Shown: positions 8,324 to 49,990 of the stretch, piece after piece
How positions within the stretch are numbered: the first letter of the stretch is position 1
Layout of the letters: every line of letters starts with the position of its first letter
Source of the DNA: Pogonophryne albipinna
Lineage: Eukaryota > Chordata > Actinopteri > Perciformes > Artedidraconidae
Reading direction: 5' to 3'
Assembly: GCA_028583405.1 (NCBI GenBank)
Contig: CM053264.1
Span: 12,288,787 to 12,352,786, forward strand
Length of the DNA: 64,000 bases
The notes under the pieces: generated by a model
Told to the model about the DNA's origin: nothing
Databases searched by the model: none
What the model saw: the letters and a program-made list of their open reading frames with translations, nothing else
Made by a program: the position numbers and the translations under genes

Positions 8324-8767
8324 TATTTATAGTGTCGTGGACAGTCCCCATCGATGAACTGTCACAAAAACAGTAAATGGTGCAGCTTTAGCCGACATGG
8401 CTAATTTCCAGCTGTTGTCCCCGGCCAGATGGTAATAGACACCCTTAACATTGTGAATGTGTTTTTAATATTGATACATTGTTTCATTAATATGTTTTAA
8501 AATGTATTTAATGACTTGTAATTCGTTTTTCTTGATGACGTATTTTTTAATACGTTTAAATCAAATCAAATGAATGTTGCAACATCAAATGTTTTAAAGT
8601 TGTGATTCAAGACCATCATTCATGGTGATGCAAAAAAAGTTTGAGGAAAATATTAAAAGAAAACGACGTAGTATAGTTTGTTGAAAATATGGGGAAAAAA
8701 CCATAGTGTGTAGAAATGTTTCAATATTGTTTTACGTCAAAGATTACTATACTATCTATATATAGAT
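8156..8767. other. Intergenic DNA, no recognised gene
   Basis: Contains a short (TTTAG)n run at about 8296-8322 and AT-rich spacer. No coding signal is seen. Confidence 0.5.
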
Positions 8768-8990
8768 TACTGAGGTAATGGTTTTTGGAGCCAAGGCAGA
8801 ACGTATACAAGTTAGCGCTGAGCTTCAGTCTGCAATGTTCAAAACAACAGATAAAGCCAGAAATCTAGGTGTAGTCATGGACTCTGACCTGAGTTTCAAC
8901 AGTCACATTAAAACAGTTACTAAATCAGCCTACTATCGCCTAAAGAATATATCTAGGATTAAAAGACTAATGTCTTTGTCTAACTTGAAT
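8768..8990 (+). mobile_element. LINE reverse-transcriptase remnant (L2/Rex1-like)
   Basis: The + strand reads through a peptide containing KARNLGVVMDSDLSFNSHIK, then KSAYYRLKNISRIKRL. This is the conserved block just after the reverse-transcriptase palm in L2/Rex1-type fish LINEs ('LGV..D..L.F..HI......A..RL..I..I'). About 70 residues survive; the upstream palm motifs and the 3' tail are missing, so it is a dead fragment. The clade is inferred from the motif only. Confidence 0.7.
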
Positions 8991-9100
8991 AAAAGTAATA
9001 CAGTTTATTACTTTTTAATGTACAAATACTTTGTTACTGTACGATATCAATAACAATAATCCACAGCTACTCTCTCTGCTCCAGAGGAAGAAAATAAAAT

Positions 9101-9836: not shown

Positions 9837-12800
9837 ACTAATGGAGTATGTTTGAAAGGCAAGAAGCTCTGCATCGCTCAGGCTGTCCGCAAGCCCAGAG
9901 CCTCAGGACCACGTAACTCGACTTTTTTATTCAGCATATTCACTTTTTTTGCCATCATTTCAAAATATGAAGGTACATTTTTTATGGGAAACTGTTTGTT
10001 TTTTTACAACAGTAGGAACTCTAAAATAACTTGAATTCAGATAAGTTTTTTTTTTAATAAATTTTGTGCATAAATATACATAGATAGAACATAAACAGAA
10101 AAAATAATACATTAATATACACATGCCAAATAAGAAATAGAAATATAACAATATTCTTATAAATATATTTAAGGTTGACATTCGTTAAATTGGAATTATG
10201 TCTCATAATAATCTCCTATTTCTTTCTAACTTGAATCCAAAAGCATGTCAACTTTTCCATTATAAAAAAAGACTTTGACATGTTCACCCTCTGTTTCTGT
10301 TTTAGATGTTTTTTTTATATATCCAAGGAGCTGAGTGCTGGCTTTTCACAAATAGTTACTGTCCCACAAAACAAGAGGAGTAACTACTTCTTCCTGCTTT
10401 CTTTTTTCTCTCAGCTAAGAGGACGACCCCTTGCTTCACCGTGCTTCTGCCGATGAGCTGTGACAGCGAGTACCTGAACACATCTGCAGGGTTTCCATAC
10501 ACCTACAACAACGGAGTGGCCTACTTCCATCATCCATACTGCCCCAACATGAGCCCTCCTGCCCTCCAGTGGCCTGTTAGTAAACACTCATATCTAGGGT
10601 TGGGTATCGTTTGAATTGCCACGATTCTGATTCCGATTCCGATTCTACTTTTCGATTCCGGTTCTTAACGGTTCTCAATTCCGATTCTTTGAGGGGCAGG
10701 GTAAAAAAATGATACATGCTTCTTCCACCAAAAAAATTACATTTATTCGAGAAACTTTTACACAGGTTAGTTTACAGTAATATTCACATTAATCAGTCTG
10801 TTAATATTCACTGCTATGTAACTGTAACCTGAGAACCACTGAAGCTACAACAGTGCAACTTTTAAAGGAACCCCCCCCCCCCCCCCCCATTTAAAAACAG
10901 TTCTTGTTGAGAAAAACAAGCATATCTGCCTTCTCAGGCATACCGGGAAGAAATGTTTGAACATTTTAAAGTAAAATGCTTCAATCTGGTGCAATTTAAG
11001 CAGAATGACTAGAGACTAGATCTAGGGGGTACAACTCTAAACACCCATATGAAAAAGATCGGTTTACATTTTAATAATTAAATAAGTATGTGAACATAAC
11101 CAGTAACCCATAGCCAATAACAAATACATGTAAAGCATTTTATTTTTGTTGTTCATTCATATCTTATTTTACTATTTTATTTATGCATATTTTTGTATCT
11201 CTCCAGTTTAAAATGATATGTCTGGTTTACTGTCCTATAGTATACATTGGAATGATTTCAAACCTGTTTTATCCCAATAATTATAAAGGTGTGCCTTGGA
11301 AAATATGTGTTTACATAAATTGTGATCAAAATGTTTGAGACCCACTGAGATAACTTAGACTAAAGTGAACTATCTAAACACTCAGAGTCCTTTACCTCAC
11401 TGAGCTGTAGTTATCAGCCTCAGTCTGACTGGAGAGGACTCTCCCTCCACATTATTGTAGAAACATCTTCTTCTAATATCCGTTAGAGCAGCTAGCACCA
11501 GATGCTAATAACAACAGCGCTGGTACCGGTGCACCCTCCCTTTCTCCCTCGCTCGCTCCCACGCTCACTCGCACTTTGGCTGTGAGCTGCGGGTGCCAGA
11601 TAAGCCAACATCCCCCATTTTCATCACTTACAGCGCCCATCGTACAGGGCAAATGAAACGTGTAACCGGGATGAAAAGGGTGTTACATTTACTTAATTAT
11701 GAATGTTGTTACATCAAGGCCGAAAATTAGGATGAGCGCAAACAGTCAAAACATTATTTTTTTCTCCCAGAGCTGTCAGCGCACCGCCTCCACAGATCTG
11801 GCGCCTTAGGCGAACATCTATAACGCCAGTGCGACGGGCCGGCCCTGGTCCCAGCTTACGCTGTAGGAAGTGTAGGTACAACGCTACATTTCCCGCCCCG
11901 CCGCAGTCATACAGTAAGCTACGGAGAGCGGCGAGAAACATTTCCTCAGGCATCGAAAAGTGGAACCGAAATTCACATTTCTAAATGATGCCGTTGGAAT
12001 CGAAATGTTGGAATCTCGGTACCCAACCCTACTCATATCACACTTCACCTCAATAGCGTTTTTTAAAAGCAAGTTATTCAAAGTAAAGTGAATGTATTGG
12101 GTATTTAAAATTGTGCTTCACAGTTGGTAGAATAAGAAGATTTAACCTGCATTACATTTTTATGTACAGCATATGCGTTGTTGGAGGAGCATAAGACTCA
12201 ATCATATCCTAGCCAAAACTCTGCTGAAGCTAGTGTGCATATGACAGATAAAGCCATTCCATCTTTATGATCTTTTTGAAGATGAATGTGTTATTTTCTT
12301 CTCTTGCAGCCTGCTCCTCCAGTGATGCTTCATCCGTCTCCTCAGCCCGTCTACCAGCAACCAGTCTATCACCAGCAACCAGTCTATCACCAGCAACCGG
12401 TCTATCACCAGCAACCGGTCTATCACCAACAACCGGTCTATCACCAGCAACCGGTCTATCACCAACAACCGATCTATCACCAACAACCGGTCTATCACCA
12501 GGAACCGGTCTATCACGAGCAACCGGTCTATCACCAGCAACCGGTCTATCACCAACAACCGGTCTATCACCAGCAACCGGTCTATCACCAACAACCGATC
12601 TATCACCAACAACCGGTCTATCACCAGCAACCGGTCTATCACCAACAACCGATCTATCACCAACAACCGGTCTATCACGAGCAACCGGTCTATCACGAGC
12701 AACCGGTCTATCACCAGGAACCGGTCTATCACGAGCAACCGGTCTATCACGAACAACCGGTCCATCACGAGCAGCCGGTCTATCACCAGGAACCGGTCTA

Positions 12801-14423
12801 TCACGAGCAACCGGTCTACCACGAGCAACCGGTCTACCACGAGCAGCCGGTCCATCACCAGCAGCCGGTCCATCACGAGCAACCGGTCCATCACGAGCAG
12901 CCGGTCCATCACGAGCAGCCGGTCCATCACGAGCAGCAGCCGGTCCATCACCAGCAACCGGTCCATCATGAGCAGCCGGTCCATCACGAGCAGCAGCCGG
13001 TCCATCATGAGCAGCAGCCGGTCCATCACGAGCAGCCGGTCCATCACGAGCAACCGGTCCATCACGAGCAGCCGGTCCATCACGAGCAACCGGTCCATCA
13101 CGTGCAGCAGCCGGTCCATCATGAGCAGCAGCCGGTCCATCACGAGCAACCGGTCCATCACGAGCAGCCGGTCCATCACGAGTAACCGGTCTATCACCAG
13201 GAACCGGTCATTCACGAACAACCGGTCCATCACGAGCAGCAGCCGGTCCATCACGAGCAACCGGTCCATCACGAGCAGCCGGTCCATCACGAGCAACCGG
13301 TCCATTACGAGCAGCAGCCGGTCCATCACGAGCAGCCGGTCCATCACGAGCAGCCGGTCCATCACGAGCAACTGGTCTATCACCAGGAACCGGTCCTTCA
13401 CGAGCAGCCGGTCCTTCACGAACAACCGGTCCATCACGAGCAGCCGGTCCATCACGAGCAGCAGCCGGTCCATCACGAGCAGCTGGTCCATCACGAGCAA
13501 CCGGTCCATCACGAGCAGCCGGTCCATCACGAGCAACCGGTCCATCACGTGCAGCAGCCGGTCCATCACGAGCAGCCGGTCCATCACGAGCAACCGGTCC
13601 ATCACCAGGAACCGGTCTATCACGAGCAGCCGGTCCTTCACGAACAACCGGTCCATCACGAGCAGCCGGTCTATCACCAGGAACCGGCCTATCACGAGAA
13701 ACCGGTCTACCACGAGCAGCCGGTCCATCACCAACAACCGGTCCATCACGAGCAGCAGCCGGTCCATCACGAGCAGCAGCCGGTCCATCACGAGCAGCAG
13801 CCGGTCCATCACGAGCAGCCGGTCCATCACGAGCAGCAGCCGGTCCATCACGAGCAACCGGTCCATCGCGAGCAACCGGTCCATCACGTGCAGCAGCCGG
13901 TCCATCACGAGCAACCGGTCCATCACGAGCAGCCGGTCCATCATGAGCAGCCGGTCCATCGCGAGCAACCGGTCCATCACGTGCAGCAGCCGGTCCATCA
14001 CGAGCAACCGGTCCATCACGAGCAGCCGGTCCATCACGAGTAACCGGTCTATCACCAGGAACCGGTCTATCACGAGCAGCCGGTAAGTGCAGCCTGTTAG
14101 TGCTCCACTTTGCTGAACAGACATATTGGATTAAAACCAGGTTAAAAATTACTACTGTCGAGAAGCTTTCTGACTCTTTTTTTAGAGGAAACAGTATCTG
14201 GAGCTCACTTTGCCTTATTCTCATGTCTGCAGTTTGAAGATCCCACACTGCCGTAGGTTTTCCCGCTGTTTCCTCCCAGGAAAGTGAAGGAATGACGCCC
14301 TTTGTTCAGCAAACACAGCCACAGTACCTCCGTTACTTCCACCACAAGGACTTCCACTTCCTGCCAGGAGCCGCAGAGCCGCTGGACACCTCCATGCTTC
14401 ACACTCTCCAACCTGTAATGTAG
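9837..14423 (+). CDS. boll: boule-like germ-cell RNA-binding protein, 3' part with expanded hexapeptide repeat; ORF interrupted
   Basis: BOULE is the ancestral DAZ-family protein, an RRM translational regulator in germ cells. Four exons are visible: 9837-9912, 10415-10575, 12310-14084 and 14280-14423 (stop TAG). They join in phase. The first ends the RRM (CLKGKKLCIAQAVRKPRASG). The second holds the family signature SAGFPYTYNNGVAYFHHP; compare TSTGYPYTYHNGVAYFH in vertebrate BOLL. The third starts PAPPVMLHPSPQPVYQQPVY, matching BOLL 'PVMVAQPIYQQPAYH', then runs into a huge hexapeptide repeat. The fourth encodes a 47-residue tail ending HTLQPVM. Two in-frame TAA codons (13183-13185, 14041-14043) arise from CAA-to-TAA changes in repeat units, so a full-length product would stop after about 291 codons of the third exon. 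The RRM core exons were not found upstream in this window. It may be a recently decaying gene, a gene with 5' exons beyond the window, or a repeat-region assembly problem. Confidence 0.8.
10595..12031 (+). mobile_element. hAT-type non-autonomous element in a boll intron
   Basis: Terminal inverted repeats TAGGGTTGGGTA...TACCCAACCCTA are flanked by a perfect 8-bp direct repeat CTCATATC (10587-10594 and 12032-12039), diagnostic of hAT transposition. The 1437-bp body has no transposase ORF. It includes a poly-C run (about 10,870-10,888). About 600 bp (10,970-11,560) is homologous to 5120-5780, and a second hAT-style end (GGGCCGGCCCTG, ending near 11,848) lies inside, so the element is composite or has absorbed another repeat. 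It starts 20 bp after the donor site of boll exon 10415-10575. Confidence 0.9.
12346..14083 (+). repeat. Coding 18-bp minisatellite (hexapeptide repeat) in boll
   Basis: About 95 tandem copies of an 18-bp unit typified by CCGGTCTATCACCAGCAA (P-V-Y-H-Q-Q). The 5' third is mostly PVYHQQ, the middle mixes PVYHQE and PVYHEQ, and the 3' half is mainly PVHHEQ, with CAG-inserted 21-bp variants giving PVHHEQQ. Almost all length changes are multiples of three, so frame is kept over 1.7 kb. Because the period is a multiple of three, long open frames also appear in other frames and on the minus strand; these are artefacts. Confidence 0.95.
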
Positions 14424-16098: not shown

Positions 16099-17262
16099 AT
16101 GGGAAAGGTGAGGTTGTTATGTGTTCTTATTGTAAATATAGTAATCTTCAAAATATTTTTTAACATCAAGCGTCCATAATTAATCAGTTTTTTTTCGACG
16201 AACGTTTGCAGATCATTTTCTACGAGGACAGGAATTTCCAGGGTCGGCACCATGAGTGCATGAGCGACTGTGCCGACCTGCACCCTTACTTCAACCGCTG
16301 CAACTCCGTTAGGGTGGAGAGCGGCTGTTTTATGGTGTACGAGAGACCTCAATACCTAGGCCACCAGTCCTTCCTCCGCAGGGGGGAGTACTCCGACAAC
16401 CAGCGCTTGATTGGCGTCAATGACTGCATCCGCTCCTGCCGCATGATTCCCATGGTAAGCCTCAGATGATATTAAAGAGGTATCGGGTCAGTTAAAGGGG
16501 AAAACTGAATAAACAAAGGCAATGAGACATAATTTAATCTTACTGCTACCTTTATGTTAAGGCTTAGCACAAACAATGTACAACTTAAGGAAAATTAAAG
16601 AGTAGCTAATGGTATGTTTTCCTGGAAGTGTTAAAAACAGTCCCTCAAATCCTCATTGCCTAAAGTAGATTAAACCTTAGCATCTTTCTCTAGTTTAAAG
16701 GACTTTTGGGGCAAGTCAATCCCAAACAACTCAATATTTCTTTAAGCTAAAATATGCTTGGATTTAGCGCATACTGGTACCTTTTATTCAGCCTAAAAAA
16801 ATGGTTAGTTGAGGAGGGACTTGTTGCTTTAAACTGCTTTCACACACCCTTGTTGTTGTTACTGTGTTACCTGCAATTAGTATTAGAAAGTTGGTACTTA
16901 TTTATGTACCAAAAACTAATACTATAAAGCACATTAAGTATGGCAAAAACAATGTATCTGACTCATACATATTCTTGTTCCTGCAGCACCGTGGTTCCTA
17001 CAAAATAAGATTGTATGAGCGTTCAGACATGAGCGGCCAAATGCATGAGGTGAGCGATGATTGCCCCAGCGTCCAGGACCGCCTGCGTATGTCTGACATT
17101 AACTCGTGCAACGTGGTGGACGGCCATTGGCTGCTGTACGACCAGCCGAACTACAAGGGCCGGCCCTACTACCTGAGACCTGGAGAGTACCGTCGATCCT
17201 TGGACTGGGGAGGCGCCAGTCCAAGGATCGGCTCTCTCAGGCGAATCACCGACTTTAATTAA
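16099..17262 (+). CDS. Gamma-crystallin 1
   Basis: Lens structural protein of the beta/gamma-crystallin superfamily, with four Greek-key motifs in two domains. The gene structure is canonical: exon 1 16099-16107 (MGK), exon 2 16212-16454 (81 codons, motifs 1-2), exon 3 16987-17262 (motifs 3-4), all phase 0, giving 175 aa. Exon 2 begins [12 protein letters not shown] and carries the Cys-rich [13 protein letters not shown] block. Exon 3 has [12 protein letters not shown] and ends [10 protein letters not shown], close to mammalian gamma-D 'GSLRRVIDF'. The second domain keeps two Trp ([18 protein letters not shown]), while the usual first-domain Trp positions are Phe and Leu. It therefore sits between Trp-rich gamma-S/D types and Met-rich gamma-M types. 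It is convergent with gene 2, their stop codons about 330 bp apart. AATAAA is at 17,298-17,303. The exact paralogue name needs a phylogeny. Confidence 0.95.
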
Positions 17263-17297
17263 AAGTCTTTTCAAACCTTTTTCCTGTCTCTGTTCTC

Positions 17298-17303
17298 AAT
17301 AAA
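17298..17303 (+). terminator. Poly(A) signal of gamma-crystallin 1
   Basis: AATAAA 36 bp after the TAA stop; a very short 3' UTR is normal for crystallin genes. Confidence 0.8.
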
Positions 17304-17590
17304 CATGCTGGGCTGAAACTGTGTGTGTGTCTCTGTATATAGACATGAAAACATATTTTAGCTTTTATTCTTGTCTCTTTCCTTTAAGTAGCTTATAGCT
17401 AGCTTATATTTGCTTTGTCCACTCCAAAACATATGCATCAAAGACGCCCAACTTGCCACCTAAGCAACATTTTAAATCCCCTCACCACTCTCAACTCAAA
17501 CAGCCCAAAGAAAACAAAAGCACCAGTTGACAGAACATTGGTTATTGTATAGATTTATTGACAGTACTTCACATAAACAGTTTCTGGACA

Positions 17591-18379
17591 TCACACAGCG
17601 ATACGTCTGATGGATCCCACCCGAGACGTGGTGCTTCCCCACTCATTAAACCTCCTGTATTCCCCGGGGTTCATCAGGTATTGGCGTCCCCTGTAATTGG
17701 GGAGTTCGTAGAAGATCCAGTAACCGTCCCTCACATTGCAGGAGGAGACGTCGTTGCGGTTTAATAGTTCGTTCAGCGAGGGGCAGTCGTCAGTCAGCTC
17801 CATCGTCTCTCCTCCTAACTCTGGCCGCTCGTATATCATTATCCTGTGAGAGCTTTGGGACTGCAGGAAAAGACTGTATTACCCTCTAGATCAGACTTAT
17901 TGTGAAGTGAAAGGCATAAGATAAGAAGTACTTTGTTGATCCCAAGTTGGGAAATGTTTGTGTTGCAGCAGCATAAAAAGACATTGTACAATAAAAACAA
18001 TTATAATAATATACCATAGGGATCAAACGGCAGGATCGCACACAGTCGTTGAACCCCATCCATTGCTGGTAGTCGGGGAACTCGCCCTTCTTTAAGAAGT
18101 ACTGGTACCCCATATATCCGGGTCTTTCAAAAACCATCCAATCACCGCTGTCCACTCTGATGGAGTTGCAGCGGCTGAAGTGGGAATGCAGGTCCGAGCA
18201 TTCGCTGCCGCACTCGTAGGAGCGACCCTTGAAATTCCTGTCCTCGTAGAATATAATCTGAAATGTAGATGCCTCAAATTAAGAGAAGTGTGCATAACTA
18301 TACCACTTGAAAGATTACTCTCAGTTCACCGATTTGGGATGAATAATCCGTGCACACAGCAGAGACTTACCTTGCCCAT
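17591..18379 (-). CDS. Gamma-crystallin 2 (Trp-retaining)
   Basis: Three exons on the minus strand: 18379-18371 (MGK), 18257-18015 (81 codons), 17860-17591 (stop TGA), giving 173 aa. Exon 2 encodes [20 protein letters not shown] and then [20 protein letters not shown]...[18 protein letters not shown]. Exon 3 begins [14 protein letters not shown] and ends [10 protein letters not shown]. Unlike the M-type members it keeps four Trp (SGDWMV, QQWMG, GYWIFY, FNEWG) at the buried positions of mammalian gamma-D/S, so it is a less derived type. The second domain is slightly short and acidic ([19 protein letters not shown]). Intron 2 (17,861-18,014) contains a LINE-tail fragment. The product is a lens structural protein with no catalytic role. 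Paralogue identity (gamma-S-like or gamma-X-like) is not settled by reading alone. Confidence 0.95.
17915..18008. mobile_element. LINE 3'-tail fragment in intron 2 of gamma-crystallin 2
   Basis: The words 'agtactttgttgatcccaag' and 'ttgggaaatgtttgtgttgc', then 'agcagcataaaaag', match the common fish LINE 3' tail 'tactttattgatcccaaattgggaaat' as remembered. A related piece ('agtcccacagaggggatatg') lies at about 22,773-22,815. Confidence 0.55.
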
Positions 18380-18433
18380 TGTGTCGGCTCACCTTCGTCA
18401 CACTGAAGCGGCAGATGTGTGCTCCGTGCTGCC

Positions 18434-18439
18434 TTTATA
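18434..18439 (-). promoter_or_regulatory. TATA box of gamma-crystallin 2
   Basis: TATAAA on the minus strand, about 55 bp upstream of the ATG at 18,379. Confidence 0.75.
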
Positions 18440-19546
18440 ACCCACGGATGACCTGTGTCATTGTGATTCAGAACAATGCGCGGGGCCGTCAGCGCTTTAT
18501 CACAGAACTATTTTTTGTTTTGTGTGTGTGTTTGACTAAGCAAATCCACTGTTTTGAGCAGTTGCTTTGAAATCGCTCTGGTAGATGGTATATGGAGTGA
18601 ATTAGATGAAGAAAACACTACAAATTAAATATTTAAACATACATGTATTGATCGGAATGAATTGTTATTACATATTACATGTAAAAATATACATATAATA
18701 ACATGAAAAAGTCAAGGCACTGCTGATATTTGTTTGTACAAAGTTTATTTATGCATCACCAATTTACATATAGATGTATCTTTGTACATTATAACACTTT
18801 CTATACAATTTAAAGCTGTTAATGCATACGCTCATGGTACTGTATGGAGACTTTAAACATGTTAACGATCAACTTGACTGAAATGTATTTTTTTGTATAA
18901 CGTAGATGCAGGATCGAATATTCAACACCCTGTGAAGTGAACTCAGCTTCTGCCTTTCCTCTGAACACAGCAGCAGCCTTTTATATGATACAGTTCACAG
19001 ACTGTTATTCTCCGCATGTCAGCACAGCAACATACTGTACAGAGTCACCAGCATTTTCAGTTTTGTTTTGCATTTAATCCCCCCCCCCCCCCCCCCCCAT
19101 AGTGTGATACGCTCTATAGACTAAGCTCTGGAATACCGTTTCATTATGTGCATGATCCGTTTTGTACAGTAGCTCAACGAAAAGCAAATGCATTTATCAT
19201 GATTTTGCATTTAGGTGCATCTTATGTACAATAAATGGCTTAACATATGCAAAAGAAATGCACTGTGACCATATACTGTATTTTTAGACCCCTCTTTATA
19301 TATTTGTTATTATTATATACAGTCTATGAAAAAGACGTCTGATACGGTGCAATATTCACTCTAATTGTACGCTTTGCAACTGCCTATCAAGTCTTAAAAT
19401 CAAGTTAAAACTAGAAATATGTTTTATGTCCTTTGTAAAAAATATCTATTGTATATGTTTGTGCTCCTGTCATCCATCTACTCTCTAAAGTAGCCATAAC
19501 ATCTCCCTGTTTATATTCAACCTTAAACTATTACTCACTGCAATAT

Positions 19547-20066
19547 CAGGGGGTCCGCGGGGTCTTACAAAGTATTACAAGTTGATAAATCAATTTAGCG
19601 AAAATTAAGGCTATTATAAAGTATTAAACAGCATTTTCCAAGGTATTACATTTTGTAGCTTGTCTTCAATAAGTATATAAATTGTCCAAAGAGGTTGTAT
19701 TCTACAGTCTGCCTGAATGTAATCATTGCGTAGGTGTGTAGTGTGATTCTGTGTAGTTTATTGATGGCATCCCGTTGGATTTGACGTAATCTGAACAGGA
19801 CATCGCACGCTCACTGCTTGATAGCGCGCGAAGGTCCGTTTACGCCGGTTGCTAAACAACATCGTTATGGGGAAATGCAAGTCTGCGTCCAAATGGTTGG
19901 AAGATAAGGAGGAAGGACAATCAATACTGTATATCGTCAATGTGAGGTGAAGTGTGTCGCCAAGGTAACCGGTTAAAACTCAAAGTGGCGATGAGGTCTT
20001 AAAATGTATGGAAAGGGTCTTAAAAAAGGTCTTACATTTGAATTCAGGATTCCTGCATATACCCTG
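19547..20066. mobile_element. hAT-like non-autonomous element (boundaries uncertain)
   Basis: The left end CAGGGGGTCCGCGGGGTCTT and right end reading inward (minus strand) CAGGGTATATGCAGGAATCC resemble a common fish repeat rich in 'ggtctta' words (e.g. 'gaggtcttaaaatg', 'aaaaaggtcttaca'). No clear target duplication was found, so family and ends are tentative. Confidence 0.45.
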
Positions 20067-20417
20067 TGTCTTCATCAATTACTTTTTAACAACCTTGTTT
20101 GAATCACTTTCTTTGTATGTGATTGGTTTGTTGTAGTGGGGTTCATTCAATCTTCTATTAAATAAAGGGAAATAGAGAATTTGACCAAATCTATGCTGGC
20201 TTTAACAGAAATATCAGACATATTTATTTGGAGTTGTAGCCTTGCAAACACATCATCCTCCCCCACCTAATCAGATCATTGATTTAGATAGATTGCATAT
20301 AAACCCAATATGAAGTCTTTATCTATGTCTTTATATGTGTTACAGATTCACATTTGGGTTGCTGTACATTTGCTAAACCAGCTTTCACCCCAAGTTTGCA
20401 TTTGTATTCTTGTTTAA

Positions 20418-20922
20418 AGGGGACCTATCATGCAAAATGCACTTTTGTACGTCTTTTATACATGAATATGTGTCCCCGGTGTGTCAGGGAACTCACCAAG
20501 TGTCAGAAAACACAACCCTCTCTCTTTTCCCCCATACCCAAATCTCTAACGGATCTGACACAGACTGATACAGATTTGAAATATCTCTGACGTCAGAAAC
20601 AAGGAGCTCCGCCTATATGGGCAACTCTCCACCTATCAGGAGGAGACAGCCACGGCCATTGCCACTCGAAAGCGCTGGAGACGCTGTAGTACATATGCCA
20701 GGCCTGTAGGTGGCGCTGTAGTCTGCCACAAAAGCAGCGAAGAAGACTTCTCACAGAATCAGCCCCTGCAAAAACAGGGCTAAAAAAGAGCAAATAGAGC
20801 GAAATGAGACATGGCTAAAATGCATGATGTGTTTGGTATTTTGAAAAAAAAAAAATTCAGACATGTTTTATATAGGTGTGGCCCTACAATATATTATTCA
20901 AATATAGCATGATAGGTCCACT
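20418..20922. mobile_element. TTAA-type MITE (piggyBac/Kolobok-like)
   Basis: Termini AGGGGACCTATCATGC and, inverted, AGTGGACCTATCATGC match at 15 of 16 positions and are flanked by TTAA on both sides (20,414-20,417 and 20,923-20,926). TTAA duplications are typical of piggyBac and Kolobok elements. The 505-bp body has no transposase ORF. Confidence 0.8.
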
Positions 20923-21213
20923 TTAAGTAAATTAAAATGCCTGTTTGACTCAGATAGTGACTTATGGAAGTTGTGTGCAGAAAGAAATCCACCATAATTA
21001 TGCGGCAAATCATTTTATTGTGCCCATCACACAGGTATAGAGGTAAATTCATCGTGGCTGGATTGCACAGTACAACTGGAACTACATGCAAACAATGCAC
21101 ACATCACAGTTTCAGGATAAAAAACAAGGCTTCTTCATTTTTTTGTATCGCCTCTCACATCTTGTTAATGTTAATAAAACAAAGCATCTGCAAAACCTAT
21201 TAGCTAGAAGTGA

Positions 21214-22985
21214 TTAGACAGATTCTGTGATGCGTCTGATGGAGTTGAACTTCATGTCTTCACTGCTCATCTCTTTGAGGTTCCTGTACTTTCCCGGCTT
21301 CAGATAAGACATCCTGCCCTCGAAGTTTGGCTGCTCGAACATCAGCCAGTATCCCTCTATCACGTTGCAGGACTGCATGTCCGACATCTGGTATTGATCC
21401 TGGATGGAGTCGCAGTCGTCGGTCAGCTCCTGCATCTGCCCTTCGAAGTTCGCCCTCTCGTAGATCCTCATCTTGAAGGGTCCCTTGTGCTGTTAAAGTA
21501 CACAATGTCAAATGAAATATATGCATAGATCTAATAAGATAGGTATGAAAACGCTACAGGTCTAGATAGGAAATTGGAACGAGCTTAATTTAGAAATCGA
21601 ATTGGTTGCCATGCTAAATAAGAAGCTAAACCCTGTCAGAGACTCTATGACTCAGCCTATCATAACAACCTAGTGAGGCTGTCCAACAACATCATCTCTG
21701 ACCCAAACCATGTTCTGAACAGTGAATATGAACTGCTACCATCTAATCGGAGATACAGGGTCCCACCATTCAATAAGGTCAGACTGAAGCACTCCTTTGT
21801 GCATCAGTCAATCCTCACAGTAAACACAGAGCTGATCCCAGATCAAATGCACGCTGAAGGCTCTTTGAGCAGCTTTTCTCTCACTGATTGTGCTGTTATG
21901 TTAAATGTTTGTTGTTTGTGTTTCATGTATTGTGTCTAGATACTTGTCTGTTGATGTTGGACATGGAGCTGCTGTGACGCAAGTCAAATTTCAGACTTGA
22001 TCTGACAAATAAAGTAATATCGTATCGTATCGTAATAATCAAAGTCAACTTTATTGTCAATCTTCCAGTTTGTGTGTACATAATAATCAGTTTAATTATG
22101 TTAAAAGTCATCCTATTGACAACTGTATGAATTAAATTGCAGCCTTTGCTCTAAAAACTCTTAGAGGCATTGCTAGATAGCCAGCTAGCGTTTGTGGAAA
22201 TGTGACAAAAAACAAAAGATCTCAACCCGATAAAGCAGTTCCTTCCCTATTTACCCATCGTGGAAATATCACTACTGGAGGTACAGAATTGAATTTGATC
22301 CGGATATGTTCATCTGCTTCTGGGTAAGACTACCACCAAAACATATTTCTCATGTCTCTTTCCATTACTGATTGCCTCCGTCTGTTCTTTGTTAGTAATA
22401 TTGTGCTTTACCTCAGGGACCATGCGGCAGGACTGAATGCACTCATTGAAGCCGATGGTGTTCTGGTACTCGGGGTACTCTCCCCTGGTGAGGAGGTGCT
22501 GCTGGCCCGTGAAGTTGGGCTGATCGTAGACCATGAACGTCCCGCTCTCCACCCTGCAGGAGCTGCATCGGCCCAGATGAGAGGAGATCTCAGAGCAGTC
22601 GCTCATGCACTCATAGGAGCGACCCTGGAAGTTCCTCCCCTCGAAAAAGACGATCTAGAGAGAGAGACACACATTGGGTAATTACCTCTGAGAGCTAAAG
22701 GCGAGTGCTGTTCAGTTTACACACAGTTGCATAGCAGAAACTACAGTATGTTACTACATAGAATCATTATTAGTCCCACAGAGGGGATATGTACATTGTT
22801 ACAGCAGAAACGAGCCAAAAGCAGCTTAATGTTAACTAAGTAGCATGCATAAAATAATATTTAAGTTACACAAATACAAACATCCTGTAACAGTTCTGAA
22901 GATATAGCAGCCAGGTATATACAGCATAATATTTAGCAGTGAATAGATCAGGCTGTTTTGCTCCCTTCATTACCTTTCCGCTCAT
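21214..22985 (-). CDS. crygm: Gamma-M-crystallin 3
   Basis: Minus-strand gene with exons 22985-22974 (MSGK), 22654-22412 (81 codons) and 21489-21214, giving 176 aa. Exon 2 starts [20 protein letters not shown] and ends FNECIQSCRMVPE. Exon 3 starts HKGPFKMRIYERANFEGQMQ and ends NSIRRITESV. It has the M-type pattern: only one Trp ([12 protein letters not shown]) and Met at many surface positions (MSD, MQS, RMSYL, EMSSEDM). In fish lenses gamma-M proteins pack at very high concentration. It is oriented like gene 4 and opposite to gene 5. Intron 2 (923 bp) carries a LINE 3' end. A Maf-like TGAGTCAGC lies 102 bp upstream of the ATG, and a CATAAAAG TATA-like word on the minus strand lies near 23,030-23,038. 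The symbol marks the family, not a specific orthologue. Confidence 0.95.
21620..22036 (+). mobile_element. LINE 3' end in intron 2 of gamma-M-crystallin 3
   Basis: The + strand encodes a peptide with YELLPSNRRYRVPPFNKVRL and KHSFVHQSILTVN, the C-terminal block of fish non-LTR ORF2 proteins ('LLPSGRRYR.P......R...SF.....'). It is followed by a 3' UTR and a short tandem tail (ATCGTATCGTATCGTA, 22,019-22,034). It lies antisense to the host gene, and its tail tandem repeat is typical of CR1/L2-like elements. Confidence 0.65.
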
Positions 22986-23086
22986 GGTCTCGGTTTTTGA
23001 TTTCTGTTGTTTTACCCACTGGCGCGCTGGCTTTTATGCATCATGTGACATCAAAAGAATCTGCCCCTCAATTGTACAAAATACCA

Positions 23087-23095
23087 TGAGTCAGC
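23087..23095 (-). promoter_or_regulatory. Maf/AP-1-like site upstream of gamma-M-crystallin 3
   Basis: TGAGTCAGC on the + strand (GCTGACTCA on the gene strand) is nine bases of the T-MARE consensus TGCTGAGTCAGCA. It ends about 102 bp upstream of the ATG. L-Maf/c-Maf activation of crystallin promoters through such sites is established in vertebrates; its use here is inferred. Confidence 0.55.
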
Positions 23096-23099
23096 TCAT

Positions 23100-25397
23100 C
23101 GGCATGGAAGTCCCTACTGTATTATACATCGAAGCTGTGCACGGATTAAACAGTAGTGGTGCAGTCACAAAGCAAACTCTAGTTATTGCATTACTTTTGT
23201 TTTCAGTTTTATTATATGGGAACAGTATACAGTGGATAAACGAGGCAAAATATGATACTAAATGCATTGACTAAAGCTCAAATACATCACTTTTGAAACA
23301 CAATTCTTCCTTAACAAAAGTAGAATTCATGAAACACAGCTTAGTTCAATACACTGAGGATTTCTGCTGCCATTTGCTGCTATGATTTTTACTTGTGACA
23401 CATCTTTAAATGTTTTTACACTATTTCTTCCATTGTTCTTTAATTACCACCACTATAATGACAATCTTTCTTTGCACATGTAATTGGTGCCTAAAATAGG
23501 AATCCCAGCATGTTGTGGTTCTGCTTATCTTTCAGCCACAATGTCCTCTTGTGCAAAATGTTATTTACAGAACACTACAATACTATCTGACTACATTCAT
23601 GCTTCTCGGAGGTAGAAAGCATCCAATTTAGGACACTGTGTTGTCAGCTTGTACACATTATAACGCAAAATATAACATACATTCATGTTCTCATGGGGAT
23701 ACAACCTATTGAATTAAAAGAACCAGTGTGTAGGATGTAGGAGGGATTATTGACAGGAATGGAATTTCATTTTCATAACAATGTTTTTATTAATCACTTA
23801 AAACTAAGAATCATGTTTTTTATTTGCTTAGATTGGGAACAATTAATCTGTCACCATGTTTCTACAGTAGCCCAGAAGGGACAGACCAAACTCCAGCCCT
23901 GTAAAGGACCCTTTTAGGTTTTTTATGTTACCTTAAGTTGCTTTGCCGTCTGCAACCTTATAGATTTATGTTATCTACTGAATTAGGAACCGTTGCAATG
24001 ACGGCAGACGAACATTTCTTGGGAGTTTTGGTAAAAGGGTTATCCACTAAAACACATGTGTCAAACTCAAGGCCCGGGGGCCAAATCAGGCCACAGGTGG
24101 ATTTAATTACTATTAGATCTGGCCCGCCGGTATATTGCACACACACCTTCACTCCATCCTGAGGGTCTCCTCAGCTCAGAGCCTGAGCCCAAACCTTGAT
24201 GACCTTGCACCCAAGATGAGATGCCAAGTATCTGAACTAGCATCACAGAGCAGCACACTGAGTTTAATGGATGTTTCCTTCTGCACTTTTTCTCTCACGA
24301 CAACAGGGCATGTTTGGTTTGTTCTTTGAGGGAAATTGTTTTTTTGAAGCTGTTGTTGGCCTGTGGGAAAATGTAATCATAAGAAATGACTCTGCAGATA
24401 GAGCCATAAGAAATGAATGCAACTGATTATTTAATGTTTAATGTTGTTTTTATAGGCAATAATTTAAGCTTTGTTAGTTCCAGGTTTAATATGTGCAATA
24501 AGTTCATTTCAATAAGTTTTGCAATAAACATTGAACCAGTCCGGCCCTCGACTAGTAGCCTACCCATTTTTTAATTTTGGCCCACTGTGTATTTGAGTTT
24601 GTCACCCCTGCACTAAAACCTTTAAAATGGAGGTGTCTGTGACTTGAATGTTGATGAAGTTAAGGCCGAATGTCTGTCGAATCATGTGTGATTTACTTGG
24701 TTTGAAATAGCTGCAATTGGTCCAACTATTGGCCAATTATGAACAGGCCAGTTTGAACCGGGCACTGCACTACGTAAGGGATAATGTGCAGCGAGGCGGT
24801 CATTATGGGGAAAAGAACACCCGACAGGCTCATCAGGGAGCCCGACGCGATTACACGCCCATATACTAAACAAACTAACGACTCGACTCCCAATATTAAT
24901 TGAAATGACTTTATTGACTTAAAAATTATCGTATTTCTTCAGCTAAGAAAAATGTCTGGACCGTTGCGTAAAAAGGAGGTTTTCTGCCCCGTTACTTCTG
25001 CTTTTCGGCCAAACTGTATACAGTTCAATCGAACTGACTTGTTTGTGCAGATGTGAGCGTCCTTAACAACGGTCAATAAGTGCTTGACAGCGGTCTGTAC
25101 TACTGGATTAACAACGTGTCACGTGTTCTGAATTCACCAATCAGAATCGAGTATTCAACTAAGCCATGTAATAAATAGTAATATTAACATTATTTAAAAA
25201 TGCTTTTTAGTGTGGAATCAAAGAGGTATGAAATGTTTTATAACTGCGTTTAAGATAAATCTTTATTCAAGAATCATAATCTATCACTAGCAAAGTATGT
25301 AGTCTGACTCCACATAAAGTAAACTACAAAACAACAGAGAGATACTTCAAAATATGGTTTTTATTCTTCACCCACAGTTTCTTTAATTACACAACAA
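23100..25397. other. Intergenic spacer between gamma-crystallins 3 and 4
   Basis: No coding region is seen. It contains a hAT element with perfect TSD (24,053-24,610), described separately, and otherwise AT-rich sequence. Confidence 0.6.
24053..24610. mobile_element. hAT non-autonomous element with perfect 8-bp TSD
   Basis: Left end CACATGTGTCAAACTCAAGG and inverted right end CAGGGGTGACAAACTCAA form imperfect inverted repeats. CACTAAAA flanks both sides exactly (24,045-24,052 and 24,611-24,618). The 558-bp body includes 'ggcccgggggcc' and 'tctggcccgcc', words common in the fish/tetrapod hAT families that end in TGTCAAACTCA. No transposase ORF is present. Confidence 0.88.
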
Positions 25398-26270
25398 TCA
25401 GCACATGTCCATGATGCGCCTGATGGAGCTGATTCTGGACATGTTGCTTGCTGCAGAGTCTCTGAGGCTCCTGTACTCTCCGGGCCTCACGTACAGCATC
25501 TTGCCTCTGAAGTTGGGCTGCTCGAACATCAGCCAGTGGCCGTCCATCACTTGGCAGGACTGGCAGTCAGACATTAGGAAATGATCCTGCAGAGACTCGA
25601 TGTCGTCAATCAGCTCGTGTATCTGGCCTCCGTAGTTCTCCCTTTCGTAGATCCTCATCCTGAAGGGGCCCCTGTGCTGTTGGAGAAAAACAAGGAGAGC
25701 ATTCCAATGCTTTTCTAAACTACCTTTCTTGAGTAGTTTCCCATCTTCATATTTGGTTCAAACTTCTCTTCGAACTTCTTACCGCGGGGATATCATTCCA
25801 ATGCTTTTCTAAACTACCTTTCTTGCACTGGAGGCGGAGTTTGCCAGCTTTAAATTAGCCAAACATGTCTTTGGACCGTTCAAATGTATCTTCGAACTTC
25901 TTACCGTGGGGATCATGCGACAGGAGCGGATGTTATCCATCATAGCCATGCCCTGCATTCCCATCATGCTTCCCATGCGCTGAAAGTCGGAGTACTCCCC
26001 TCTCTTCAAGAACACCTGATTGCCCATGTAGTTGTGGCGGTCGTACACCACGAAGCAGCCGTTGTCCACCCTGCAGGAGTTGCAGCGGTTCAGGTGCATG
26101 TGGATGTCGGTGCAGTCGCTGCTGCACTCATGGGAACGACCCTGGAAGTTCCTTTCTTCATAGAAAATAATCTGCAAACAAAAAACATGCATGAAAAGTT
26201 AGATTAGTGAGTTTAATAGACTTTTACTGCACCAATGATACAAACATGTGATATTATTTACCCTGCCCAT
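25398..26270 (-). CDS. crygm: Gamma-M-crystallin 4 with Met-rich loop insertion
   Basis: Minus-strand gene with exons 26270-26262 (MGR), 26171-25905 (89 codons) and 25676-25398, giving 184 aa. Exon 2 starts [20 protein letters not shown]. After SDFQRM it has an eight-codon-longer segment, [20 protein letters not shown], before the splice junction, where sister genes have about [15 protein letters not shown]. Exon 3 starts [20 protein letters not shown] and ends [10 protein letters not shown]. One Trp remains ([11 protein letters not shown]). High Met content and loss of Trp are M-type hallmarks. The gene is divergent from gene 5 across a 518-bp interval with a TATATATAA box on its strand (26,315-26,323). 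Intron 1 is 90 bp; intron 2 contains two copies of a 'cattccaatgcttttctaaa' word (25,699 and 25,795 regions), a small internal duplication. Confidence 0.95.
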
Positions 26271-26788
26271 GATTACGCTTTTAGTTTTAGCAAATGATGA
26301 CAACCCAGCGTCACTTATATATACAGTATCAGCTGCAGACCACTTCACACACCTTTGTGCAAAACATCATGACTCATCACTAAGTTCAAGTGGCCTTGCT
26401 TTTATTTTGAACAGCCCACCTGAATAGTTATTGTATGTTAAATGTAGTTTCGAGAGGTCAAATCAGGTCATAACAGAAGCAAAACAATCCTCAAATTATG
26501 TTTTTAAATGTAGTTGTATTTAATAGTTGTTCACCTCTTAAGGAACGCACATGAATAAATAGTTGAAGTTTCTAGAAGCACATATAAACCCAGTATTCAC
26601 AATAACTACTGCAGAATCTGACATACAGTGACATCTGCCACCCTATGGTGCTGCGCAGAGCCACAATATAGAGTGATGACTCAAAGGTTTCAGCACAAGC
26701 CATGTGGAAATGCTACGGCCGTGCGATGTATAAAAAGGGAAACGGGTCGATGTTGAAGCAGCACATCTGAAATTAGCACACAATAATC
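26271..26788. promoter_or_regulatory. Shared divergent promoter of gamma-M-crystallins 4 and 5
   Basis: The 518 bp between opposing ATGs holds a TATA box for each gene (26,315-26,323 minus; TATAAAAA 26,729-26,736 plus). It also holds a TGACTCA site about 100 bp from each ATG (26,370-26,376 for gene 4; 26,677-26,683 for gene 5), and a Maf half-site TCAGCA at 26,690-26,695. The mirror layout suggests a common lens-specific control region. The sites are seen; their function is inferred. Confidence 0.65.
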
Positions 26789-27892
26789 ATGGACATGGGC
26801 AGGGTAAGTGAAGCTTTCCAAACATCACAGAAACATGGAAGAGGTGTCGTCTGGAAACTCAGGTCCACTTTGTTGTTTGCAGATCACATTCTATGAGGAG
26901 AAGAACTTCCAGGGTCGCTCCTATGAGACCAGCAACGACTGCCCTGAGCTCACCTCCTACCTGAGCAGGTGCAACTCCTGCAGGGTGGAGAGCGGCCTCT
27001 TCATGGTCTACGAGAAGCCCAACTTCATGGGCCAACAGATGCTGGTGAGGAGGGGCGAGTACCCTGACAACCAGCGCCTGATGGGCATGACTATGAGCGA
27101 CTGCATCAGGTCCAGTCGCATGATCCCCACGGTAGGTTTATCGCTCTCAGCTGCAATAAGTAAGCCACAAATTACAATTAATTTGTGGTTGCAACAAAAA
27201 CAACTTTGTAAATTGGCTGAGCTGATATTGGACTATCATCAGCATTTCTATTGGTCGACAGCACAGGTTAAAGTTAAGCAAATGCAAAATGCTTGCAGGA
27301 AATCTGTCATAAAATATTCTAAACTCAGGTTGCCTTTGCTGAGGAAGCCTGTACATTTGATGGGAACATGGCTGCCATTAATGGTATTTGCAAACCCATT
27401 TTGTGAGTCTTTAAAATAACAAAATGAATATTGTAACGTCTCTTAAGATTCCCAGTACTTAGGCCCAGAACCAGTGCTGTTACAATAGTGTTGTATCAAC
27501 CATCACAGTGGTTTTTTCACGATAACAGGTTGTTTTCTTGAGATAATCAGGGCATTAACACGTGGATCTGATGCTTTAATGCCCTGATTATCCTGACGTA
27601 TCTTCACCTACAGCACAAGGGACCCTTCAGGATGAAGATCTACGAGAATGAGAACTTCGGAGGCCAGATGCACGAGCTGATGGACGACTGTGACAACATG
27701 CAGGATCGTTTCCGCATGAACGAGTGCCAGTCCTGCAACGTGATGGAGGGCCACTGGCTGATGTTCGAGCAGCCCAACTACAGAGGCAAGATGATGTACG
27801 TGAGGCCCGGAGAGTACAGGAACCTCAGAGAGATGGGGATGAGCAACATGACAAGGTTCAGCTCCATGAGGCGCATCATGGACTCCTGTTAA
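26789..27892 (+). CDS. crygm: Gamma-M-crystallin 5
   Basis: Exons 26789-26803 (MDMGR), 26883-27131 (83 codons) and 27614-27892, giving 180 aa. Exon 2 starts [20 protein letters not shown] and has the M-type loop [20 protein letters not shown]. Exon 3 is [20 protein letters not shown]...[20 protein letters not shown] and ends [10 protein letters not shown]. About one residue in ten is Met and there is a single Trp, a composition associated with very high-refractive-index fish lens proteins. The start is the first ATG after the TATA box and gives an N-terminus slightly longer than its sisters; the internal Met (MGR) matches the family start. AATAAA is at 27,910-27,915. Intron 2 contains a perfect 17-bp inverted repeat just before the acceptor of exon 3. 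Confidence 0.95.
27542..27592 (+). repeat. 17-bp perfect inverted repeat beside a 3' splice site
   Basis: Arms GATAATCAGGGCATTAA (27,542-27,558) and TTAATGCCCTGATTATC (27,576-27,592) are exact complements with a 17-base loop. The stem ends 21 bases before exon 3 of gamma-M-crystallin 5, occupying the usual branch-point zone of the intron. Confidence 0.9.
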
Positions 27893-27909
27893 CTCCGAAT
27901 GTACGGGGA

Positions 27910-27915
27910 AATAAA
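27910..27915 (+). terminator. Poly(A) signal of gamma-M-crystallin 5
   Basis: AATAAA 18 bp after the stop codon. Confidence 0.8.
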
Positions 27916-29331
27916 GAAAGCTGAAATCTAATGGTTCTGATTGTAGACTTTGTGCAAGCATGTTCTGAAAACACAAGCATTCACACATAACTCTAGACAC
28001 ATGGTAATTAGTTTTCTTATTTTGATCACTTATGGAGTTAAAACAGGGATTTGTATGGACTGAACCAAGATGATATTATGTTTTAAAAGATATCCTCCCA
28101 TTATGCAAACCAGTTTTGTCAGACACTCCCCGTTTGGTTATTGTCCACACATTTAAACTCCACGGCCAAAGTTGGTCACACACACTTCCTGTTATAAGTT
28201 CAAGCTCCAAACTAAAACTAATACATTCACTTAACGTGTACAATTGGTGGAGTTATCCTATCCATATCTCTAAGATGTATCAGTCAGTTTCTTCATGAAG
28301 CTGCTATTTGTCTGCATGTTTCTCTTGTTGAAGAGGGTACAGGAAAATAGTTAATAAAAACAAGTACACTGAAGCCAATAACACACATTTTACAAAATGA
28401 ACAGCATGCATGTGGTTTACCGACAGTATTCCTGCAATTTTACCTTAGTGTCGGATTAAAGAACAGGAGGGGTCCAAACTCCAAATGGTTCATCCTCTGA
28501 GGAGCATGAATGTACAATCTGCCTATTAGATCATATATTTCTTGGGTACAAATGGGATTATTAAACATTGTAGAATAGTCCTGACTGGATCTAGAGGCTA
28601 GTTGGATTCATCCTCTGGGAATTAATAATCATTTTAAATTGAAAGACAATAGTATTGTTATTTAGCGCTAGTCTTTTTCCGTATTCAGATCTAAATACTC
28701 AACAGTCATTTGGATTAATCAGATGTTTTGCTTTTTCTGATGTCGCTTAACATCAATATCATAACTATTATCAAACTAAAACAATGAGCCACTATTGCCA
28801 AGCTCAGGAGTGCACCGTGTTTAATATAAAGACATTTTCTTTGTCTAAAAGGACAGTTCTGGACTCACTGACTCAGCTCGTTTCATATCAAACCAGATGT
28901 CTGGCAGTGCCGTTGTTTTGTCAGCTCGCTTTGCCGCAATGCTTTCCACTTTGCATTGTTCAGAGCAACAGGATTCCCAGCTTCAGAACAATGTGATAAA
29001 CCTGGATAAATATCTGAATCACTGACTGATTTATCCAGGTGACACAAAGCAAACCATGTGCTAATTGTTCTGTGTAATGAGAGTATTGGAGACAACACAA
29101 AACTAATAATGAAGTGATATTTTATATATTTAATACATATTTTATGCCATATTCTTCTAAATGTGTATAGTCATTGATCTGATATGTCAATTTATTGAAA
29201 CCTCATACTACTCTTTGCACTTTGTGGATGCTTCATTTTGTTGTACTCATTTGGCAAAACGATGTCTCTTAAAACTTTGCTCGAGTAAAAGCCATTTCAC
29301 CGCCTTGTACACATATGTTGTTGTTGTTCAG
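27916..29331. other. Intergenic spacer, nothing recognised
   Basis: AT-rich sequence between gamma-M-crystallin 5 and the crystallin relic. No ORF, splice chain or repeat of note is seen. Confidence 0.5.
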
Positions 29332-29430
29332 ATCCGTTTCTACCAGGACGAATACTTCCAGGGTCGATTCCCTCAATCTGGTAATGACTCCAGCAACATG
29401 CGCACGTACCTCAGCCGCAGCAGTAAGTGA
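29332..29430 (+). pseudogene. Truncated gamma-crystallin exon-2 relic
   Basis: After an intact acceptor (ttgttcag) the sequence reads IRFYQDEYFQGRFPQSGNDS and then SNMRTYLSRSSK and stop. This is recognisably motif 1 of a gamma-crystallin (compare [12 protein letters not shown]...YLSRCNS). The Cys-Asn that should follow YLSR are replaced, and the frame ends at TGA, inside a perfect donor-like word GTAAGT. No exon 1, second half of exon 2 or exon 3 was found nearby. A hAT element starts 37 bp later. It is best read as a decayed copy in the cluster, same strand as its neighbours. Confidence 0.8.
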
Positions 29431-29466
29431 GTATACGTTAAAAACTAAATTAGATATGTCTACAGT

Positions 29467-30217
29467 CAGAGTTGGGTGTAACGCGTTACAAAGTAATAAT
29501 AATATTACTTTTGTCGGTAACGGAGTAGTGTAACGCGCTACTTTTATAATTCAGTAATCACACTACAGTTACTAACATTGCCCCGACACGCGTTACTTCG
29601 TTACTTACTAAAATCAGTCATAATCAAACGTCAACAAACACCTGCAAAGAACACATGCTAAGGTGAAGCTAACGCACAGCTATTTGTTGTTTGTTTATAT
29701 CACGTAGTCTGTTCTTCTTCTCTGTTTTCCGGTTGTTGCCTCTTTTGAATGACGAATACACACTACCGCCGCCTGCTGGTAAGGAGAGTTATTGCCACTC
29801 ACGCATGCGCAGTTCGTACGTGATCGGCTGAAGTCTTTGCGGTGTGCTCCAGTCTGGTTCCAGTGCAACACATGGCCAACACGCAGGAGAACACGCCGAC
29901 GCAACAGCGTGAGCAGAGATAGACTGCGCAAAATATACAGATAGCAGGAGACAGAGGACAGCCATGGTCAGATAGGAAAACATTCAGGATCTGGATCAGT
30001 CTTATGCGACAATGGAAACTGAACTAAAGAGAACATTTGAAACTTTTGCAGTCTGCGTGATCTGCCTGCAGGGAGGGGCGGGCCGGCCCTGCGAGTAAAG
30101 TAACGAGTAAAGTAACGAGTTACTTTATGTAGAGAGTAACGAAGTAGTGTAATATATTACTTTTTTTTAAAGTAATATGTAATATATTACTTTTTTTTAG
30201 TAACGACGCCATCTCTG
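29467..30217. mobile_element. hAT-type MITE ('GTAACGCGTTAC' family)
   Basis: Ends CAGAGTTGG and, inverted, CAGAGATGG, with subterminal runs of 'gtaacg' and 'taacgcgttac' words. It is flanked by TCTACAGT (29,459-29,466) and TCTACAAT (30,218-30,225), an 8-bp duplication with one mismatch. The 751-bp body lacks a credible ORF. Its terminal words match those of the larger element in the etv5a intron at 45,333-49,049. Confidence 0.82.
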
Positions 30218-30521
30218 TCTACAATATAATTTAATCAATGTGCCTTTTAGTTTTGCTTGTATTCTGTGTTGCCGATGAGATAAAGTATATGCAATATAAA
30301 TCATGTCATGAGACAACACAATGTACCGAGTGCATAAAATAATACAGTTTGAGATAAAACGCATTGACATCATTCATTCGCAATTTCTGCATCACCCACA
30401 GGAGAAATCAAACAGCAGCCATGGATTTTAAAACAATTGCAGCCTCAGCTAATGTGGCAACGTTAATGGAGAGCTCATTTGCATGACAATCGTTTTCCTG
30501 GCAGTGCATTTCATCCGCCTG

Positions 30522-30530
30522 TATAATAAA
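30522..30530 (+). promoter_or_regulatory. TATA-like box of crygs
   Basis: TATAATAAA lies 70 bp upstream of the ATG at 30,600. Confidence 0.55.
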
Positions 30531-30599
30531 GTGGAGCATCGGGGATGCAGGGAGAACGAGGCGCTTTGATTTGATCGTGTGAGGAGGAACGGAAGGACC

Positions 30600-38716: not shown

Positions 38717-49990
<11,274 letters not shown>

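Follow-up and report, generated by a model that had tools for sequence, protein, structure and literature searches.

The 3' half of boll (boule) has, in our assessment, been eroded in this notothenioid-type lineage, and a stretch of one of its exons has grown there into a 93-unit minisatellite, a reading that we hold with moderate confidence. The array itself probably contributes nothing functional to the protein, because its early stop codon would be expected to lead to either a degraded transcript or a truncated protein. The window, that is, the whole 64,000-nucleotide stretch of DNA analysed, carries the array, stop codons within and behind it, a change of frame and a fusion of two exons, and the middle exons of boll found no credible match in its first 16 kb.

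The boll locus and its array exon

As judged by sequence comparison, the locus is boll, because its flanking exons correspond in order to those of percomorph boll and gamma-crystallin genes follow it; the preliminary description had thus named the gene correctly. The comparison used an HMM built from 60 percomorph rows. For this model and for the branch lengths given below, 66 ids were chosen, P0170, P0172 and lengths outside 280-400 residues were dropped, and P0159 was restored, leaving 62 rows. The exon coding for the last part of the boll RRM (TNGVCLKGKKLCIAQAVRKPRASGP...) lies at 9837-9912 on the forward strand (38.7 bits, iE 7.5e-12, at 9837-9908) and is followed by a low-scoring donor, CAC/GTAACT (0.33). 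The next exon, at 10415-10575 on the same strand and ending in MSCDSEYLNTSAGFPYTYNNGVAYFHHPYCPNMSPPALQWP, matched over 10447-10575 (67.7 bits, iE 6.7e-21), and the donor behind it, CCT/GTTAGT, is weak (-1.03). Four post-RRM exons (GYPYTYHNGVAYF, PAPPV..QPVYQQ, TEGMTP and HHKDYHYLPE) were matched in order, at 10447-10575, 12310-12375, 14239-14315 (in two frames) and 14316-14420. Among the RRM exons the last alone matched; no credible HMM match to the earlier ones was found in the first 16 kb of the window, and these may lie to its left. Percomorph boll proteins such as those of Siniperca (P0103) and Cottoperca (P0128) share with the window both the exon order and the conserved residues around the array.

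Beside boll, beta/gamma-crystallin domain exons occupy 16206-33111 on both strands, and Pfam Crystall was recovered in all four open frames tested. This neighbourhood agrees with boll, because two fish models, P0170 (Nibea) and P0149 (Pampus), combine an RRM with crystallin domains in a single protein. Within a boll intron, an open frame at 8766-9053 on the forward strand resembles a LINE reverse-transcriptase fragment.

The array exon spans 12310-14082 on the forward strand; at 1773 bp it comprises 591 codons, and both of its borders are in phase 0. It begins with PAPPVMLHPSPQPVYQQ at 12310 and continues into tandem units, as the preliminary description had seen. Its first 22 codons (12310-12375) match a percomorph exon with 30.3 bits, its acceptor is good, and its donor, CCG/GTAAGT, is strong and the best of the three scored (6.62), the scores coming from a simple home-made donor matrix. 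The feature had been drawn as far as 14423, where the terminal coding region ends; its start stands, but the array exon itself stops at 14082.

The array is real as DNA. Tandem Repeats Finder placed it at 12356-14084 (period 18, 93.6 copies, score 2101), and subsequent splitting into units yielded 93 units of 29 types at 12361-14079 on the forward strand, close to the roughly 95 first proposed. The proposed 18-bp unit also held: 78 of the 93 units have this length and 15 measure 21 bp, all multiples of 3, and the 1719 bp of the array contain no non-triplet indel. The commonest units encode PVHHEQ (two spellings, 17 and 12 copies) and PVHHEQQ (8 copies), while the 5' end consists mostly of PVYHQQ units. 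The array aligns with QPVYQQPAYHHYQ of other percomorphs, in the part of the protein to which it had been assigned.

Several features stand elsewhere in the window. A SCAN-domain open frame of 591 codons at 45626-47401 on the reverse strand (SCAN 36.6 bits, with a weak zinc knuckle) is perhaps a retroelement gag-like or domesticated gene, and 37-bp tandem arrays lie near it at 45436-45678 and 48266-48632. A 57-bp tandem array occupies 39569-40209 (11.1 copies, 96% matches). Open frames at 56895-58040 on the reverse strand, with PPPPYASI and PPPYSVATSLPTYDEAE, have what we take to be an NDFIP-type look; no family match above the cut-off was found for them.

Stop codons in the array and the damaged 3' end

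From 12310 the array exon stays open for 291 codons, 274 of which belong to the array. A TAA in the boule reading frame at 13183-13185 on the forward strand then closes it, and a second in-frame TAA follows on the same strand at 14041-14043. These two codons rule out the single frame of 570+ residues that had been proposed, and the sequence in its present form encodes no giant repeat protein. The further suggestion of a Tyr/His/Gln protein that phase-separates or aggregates is likewise not predicted; it fails because, besides the two TAA codons in the array, the C-terminal region carries a further stop, a frameshift and losses. The lesson is that stop codons can hide in an in-phase repeat read by eye.

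Both stop-bearing units sit within identical four-unit runs (units 43-46 and 89-92, counted from 1). One CAA to TAA change copied by duplication or conversion would be the simplest account of both stops, although two independent changes may have occurred instead. The recurrence of the stop within this shared run makes it probable that units were still being duplicated once it had arisen. The stop mutation creates a GT at 13181 and 14039, but in a different phase. Splicing within the array to remove the stops was rejected, the best internal GTs scoring -1.72, -1.85 and -1.85 versus 6.62 at 14082, a comparison that is not decisive because the donor at 10575 scores just -1.03. The first TAA lies 897 nt before the end of the array exon. 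Nonsense-mediated decay is expected for a stop in this position, and an array-containing transcript would be expected either to be degraded or to yield a truncated protein.

In Siniperca and most percomorph rows listed, QPVYQQPAYHHYQ is followed by CVPNQYQWNVVQ, SPMPSS...EDTTPE, FLEP...TEGMTPIVLQHDPGK and NLMF..., with exon borders judged from isoforms among the listed proteins. Percomorph boll has QPVYQQPAYHHYQ or a similar string once and then the middle exons, whereas the window has the array instead. No credible HMM match to the middle exons NQYQW and SPMPS was found in the first 16 kb, the model of the former having 12 positions and little power, and the gap from 14082 to 14233 offers 150 bp only.

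The terminal coding region runs on the forward strand from the homologous exon start at 14233 (FEDPTLP) to 14423. It contains a TAG at 14254-14256 and a frameshift before 14280, and after the TAG it resumes in the other frame as ESEGMTPFVQQ. One exon is thereby split between two frames, with HMM pieces at 14239-14280 (9.4 bits) and 14277-14315 (8.0 bits), on which tblastn and translation agree. Two exons of the relatives are fused here without an intron, joining QPQYLRYFHHKDFHFLPGAAEPLDTSMLHTLQPVM, and about 15 residues are missing (a gap of 15 versus Cottoperca P0128 by tblastn). The Cottoperca boll model does contain the regions that are missing or broken in the window, but its source labels it LOW QUALITY PROTEIN. 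The last part, ESEGMTPFVQQTQPQYLRY...LQPVM at 14280-14423 on the forward strand, is open over 48 codons with an AG just before it, and matched at 14316-14420 with 57.9 bits. The disabling changes in the boll coding sequence are TAA, TAA, TAG and the frame change.

Relatives of the array and selection on boll

None of the 222 boll-search proteins contains an array (at least two matches to the unit pattern). These 222 were the best listed of 858 and 365 matches, with candidates restricted to a query-like length range, so that an array protein could escape. Within this best-listed set, the absence of a described equivalent claimed in the preliminary description is consistent with our result. A protein search directed at the array gave 37 matches at E up to 10, comprising boll proteins without an array and others. 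Among the 37, P0249 is a boll fragment, and the seven other proteins inspected (P0223, P0224, P0225, P0227, P0228, P0234 and P0235) were set aside as unrelated and of low complexity. The Pfam matches of the array, Cementoin (above the cut-off) and Plasmodium_HRP (below it), were taken as low-complexity look-alikes. Turtle boll proteins P0039, P0045 and P0047 have three single PVYHQ copies between them and no array. Among the literature matches listed, no title or abstract start concerned a boule array in fish, and none was found with notothenioid and boule as whole words.

As in the window, a sequence behind the RRM of a DAZ-family gene has been amplified in tandem in primate DAZ. A single DAZ repeat of 24 residues is reported for BOULE and DAZL and 8 to 24 copies for DAZ, the unit being coded by exon 7 (PMC2322974). 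The DAZ unit is exon-coded and 24 residues long, whereas that of the window has 6-7 residues, about a quarter of this, and lies inside one exon whose frame is closed. Amplification of the 24-residue DAZ repeat is ruled out by the unit length of 6 or 7 codons within one exon.

The nearest boll protein to the window among the 222 best listed is P0159 of Champsocephalus gunnari, an icefish (Notothenioidei). Ten short window strings, including CLKGKKLC, KRTTPCF, MSCDSEYL, HHPYCPN and the intronic VSKHSYLG, occur in P0159 alone of the 222, and 8 changed residues or gap groups separate P0159 from the window. A notothenioid origin of the window is probable on these strings, although one gene from one species is thin evidence. 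Because the annotation of P0159 ends within the intron that follows the GVAYF exon, this protein is silent on any array.

Changes among array units were counted on a minimum spanning network that joined 27 unit types, with 21-bp units trimmed to 18. Of its steps, 19 were nonsynonymous, 8 were synonymous and 1 was nonsense, where 72%, 23% and 5%, respectively, would be expected at random (transitions weighted 2), and no significant deviation from neutrality was found (one-sided P 0.30). The nonsynonymous to synonymous ratio was 8:6 in units before the first stop (P 0.09), a slight, non-significant lack of nonsynonymous changes, and 16:4 in units after it (P 0.74), with no significant difference between the two (Fisher P 0.25). 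The array units are compatible with neutral change, and weak constraint may act in the array's first half. That every unit is a multiple of 3 is weak evidence of constraint, because one 3-bp insertion copied often explains the 21-bp units.

Among the 60 of 62 rows kept for branch lengths (those with at most 2 gaps), the RRM of C. gunnari has the longest terminal branch, 0.358 (next 0.296; median 0.045). The frame of this RRM is open and the domain is recognised as an RRM, with 43.4 bits versus 65.8 for Cottoperca, and 7 of its 42 aligned near-invariant sites are changed. These changes alone are no proof of decay, because P0180 shows the same number and three other proteins show 6 each.

Erosion, competing readings and significance

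For the erosion of boll, it is the order of events, the loss of function and the fish group that we infer. The process would have started from an exon segment after the RRM, which in relatives codes for PVYQQPAYHHYQ-like (PVYQQ-like) residues, and this segment would have grown by unit duplication, most likely through slippage or unequal exchange, into the 93-unit minisatellite. One CAA codon would have become TAA, and the stop-carrying unit would then have been copied within the array. Constraint on the 3' half would have been lost, with stops, frame change and exon losses arising either earlier or later; the two following exons of the relatives would have disappeared and the last coding region been broken. 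We count in favour of erosion the TAA codons at 13183 and 14041 in their shared run, the TAG at 14254, the two frames in one exon, the unmatched middle exons, the mere 150 bp between 14082 and 14233, the unit changes close to random expectation and the C. gunnari branch. Counted against it are the last 48 codons, open and boll-like, and the stop-free frame on exon skipping, and further the open C. gunnari RRM, the modest margin of its branch, the equal number of changed near-invariant sites in another fish, the 8:6 ratio and the frame kept by every unit length.

It is also conceivable, though we think it rather unlikely, that Boule has been remodelled and not lost. The product would be a short and rapidly changing RRM protein, either lacking the array exon or carrying a repeat tail of 274 residues up to the first stop; the exon would then be a minisatellite whose length may vary. 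The main rival is a shortened Boule that is still made, because leaving out the array exon yields an open frame, and we give this a somewhat smaller chance. Either the internal AG at 14279 would serve as acceptor and the array exon would be skipped, or there would be read-through into the intron after 10575, and the array would be spliced-out or untranslated DNA. With the array exon included, stops are met with either acceptor, 14233 or 14280, and an intact open reading frame is present only if that exon is skipped; with the AG before 14280, the RRM end, 10415-10575 and 14280-14423 then form one open frame to the last stop. Read-through would be favoured by the weak donor at 10575 and by its product, VSKHSYLGLGIV followed by a stop (10576-10614, forward strand), exactly as in P0159, the annotated protein of C. 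gunnari, at its end. However, that protein is a prediction and no proof of expression, skipping is not obvious for an exon with a good acceptor and the best of the scored donors, and the 48-codon open frame could reflect chance and recent decay.

We consider it improbable that errors of sequencing or assembly, or rare alleles, account for the stops and the frameshift and that the species' long-array boll is intact. Tandem arrays are difficult to assemble and a lone single-base frame change can be an error, but the absence of non-triplet indels throughout the array is unlike a poor consensus, the stop recurs within a shared unit run, and missing or fused exons are not base errors. Slightly less probable still is a truncated Boule, made and functional, with a repeat tail of 274 residues that runs as far as the TAA at 13183; it is a form whose 291 open codons from 12310 do join in phase to the upstream exons, but whose stop is expected to provoke nonsense-mediated decay, whose unit changes look neutral, and beyond whose stop the array keeps the same make-up.

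Boule is an animal fertility gene that is very widely conserved. Purifying selection on boule in insects and mammals and infertility of male mice upon its loss have been reported (PMC2904765), as has expression in both sexes in trout and medaka (PMC3017096). Erosion of boll in a fish lineage would therefore be notable. If true, a broken 3' half filled with a minisatellite would provide a test case for the dispensability of boll and for takeover by dazl, and a broken boll would allow the order of repeat growth and loss of constraint to be asked.
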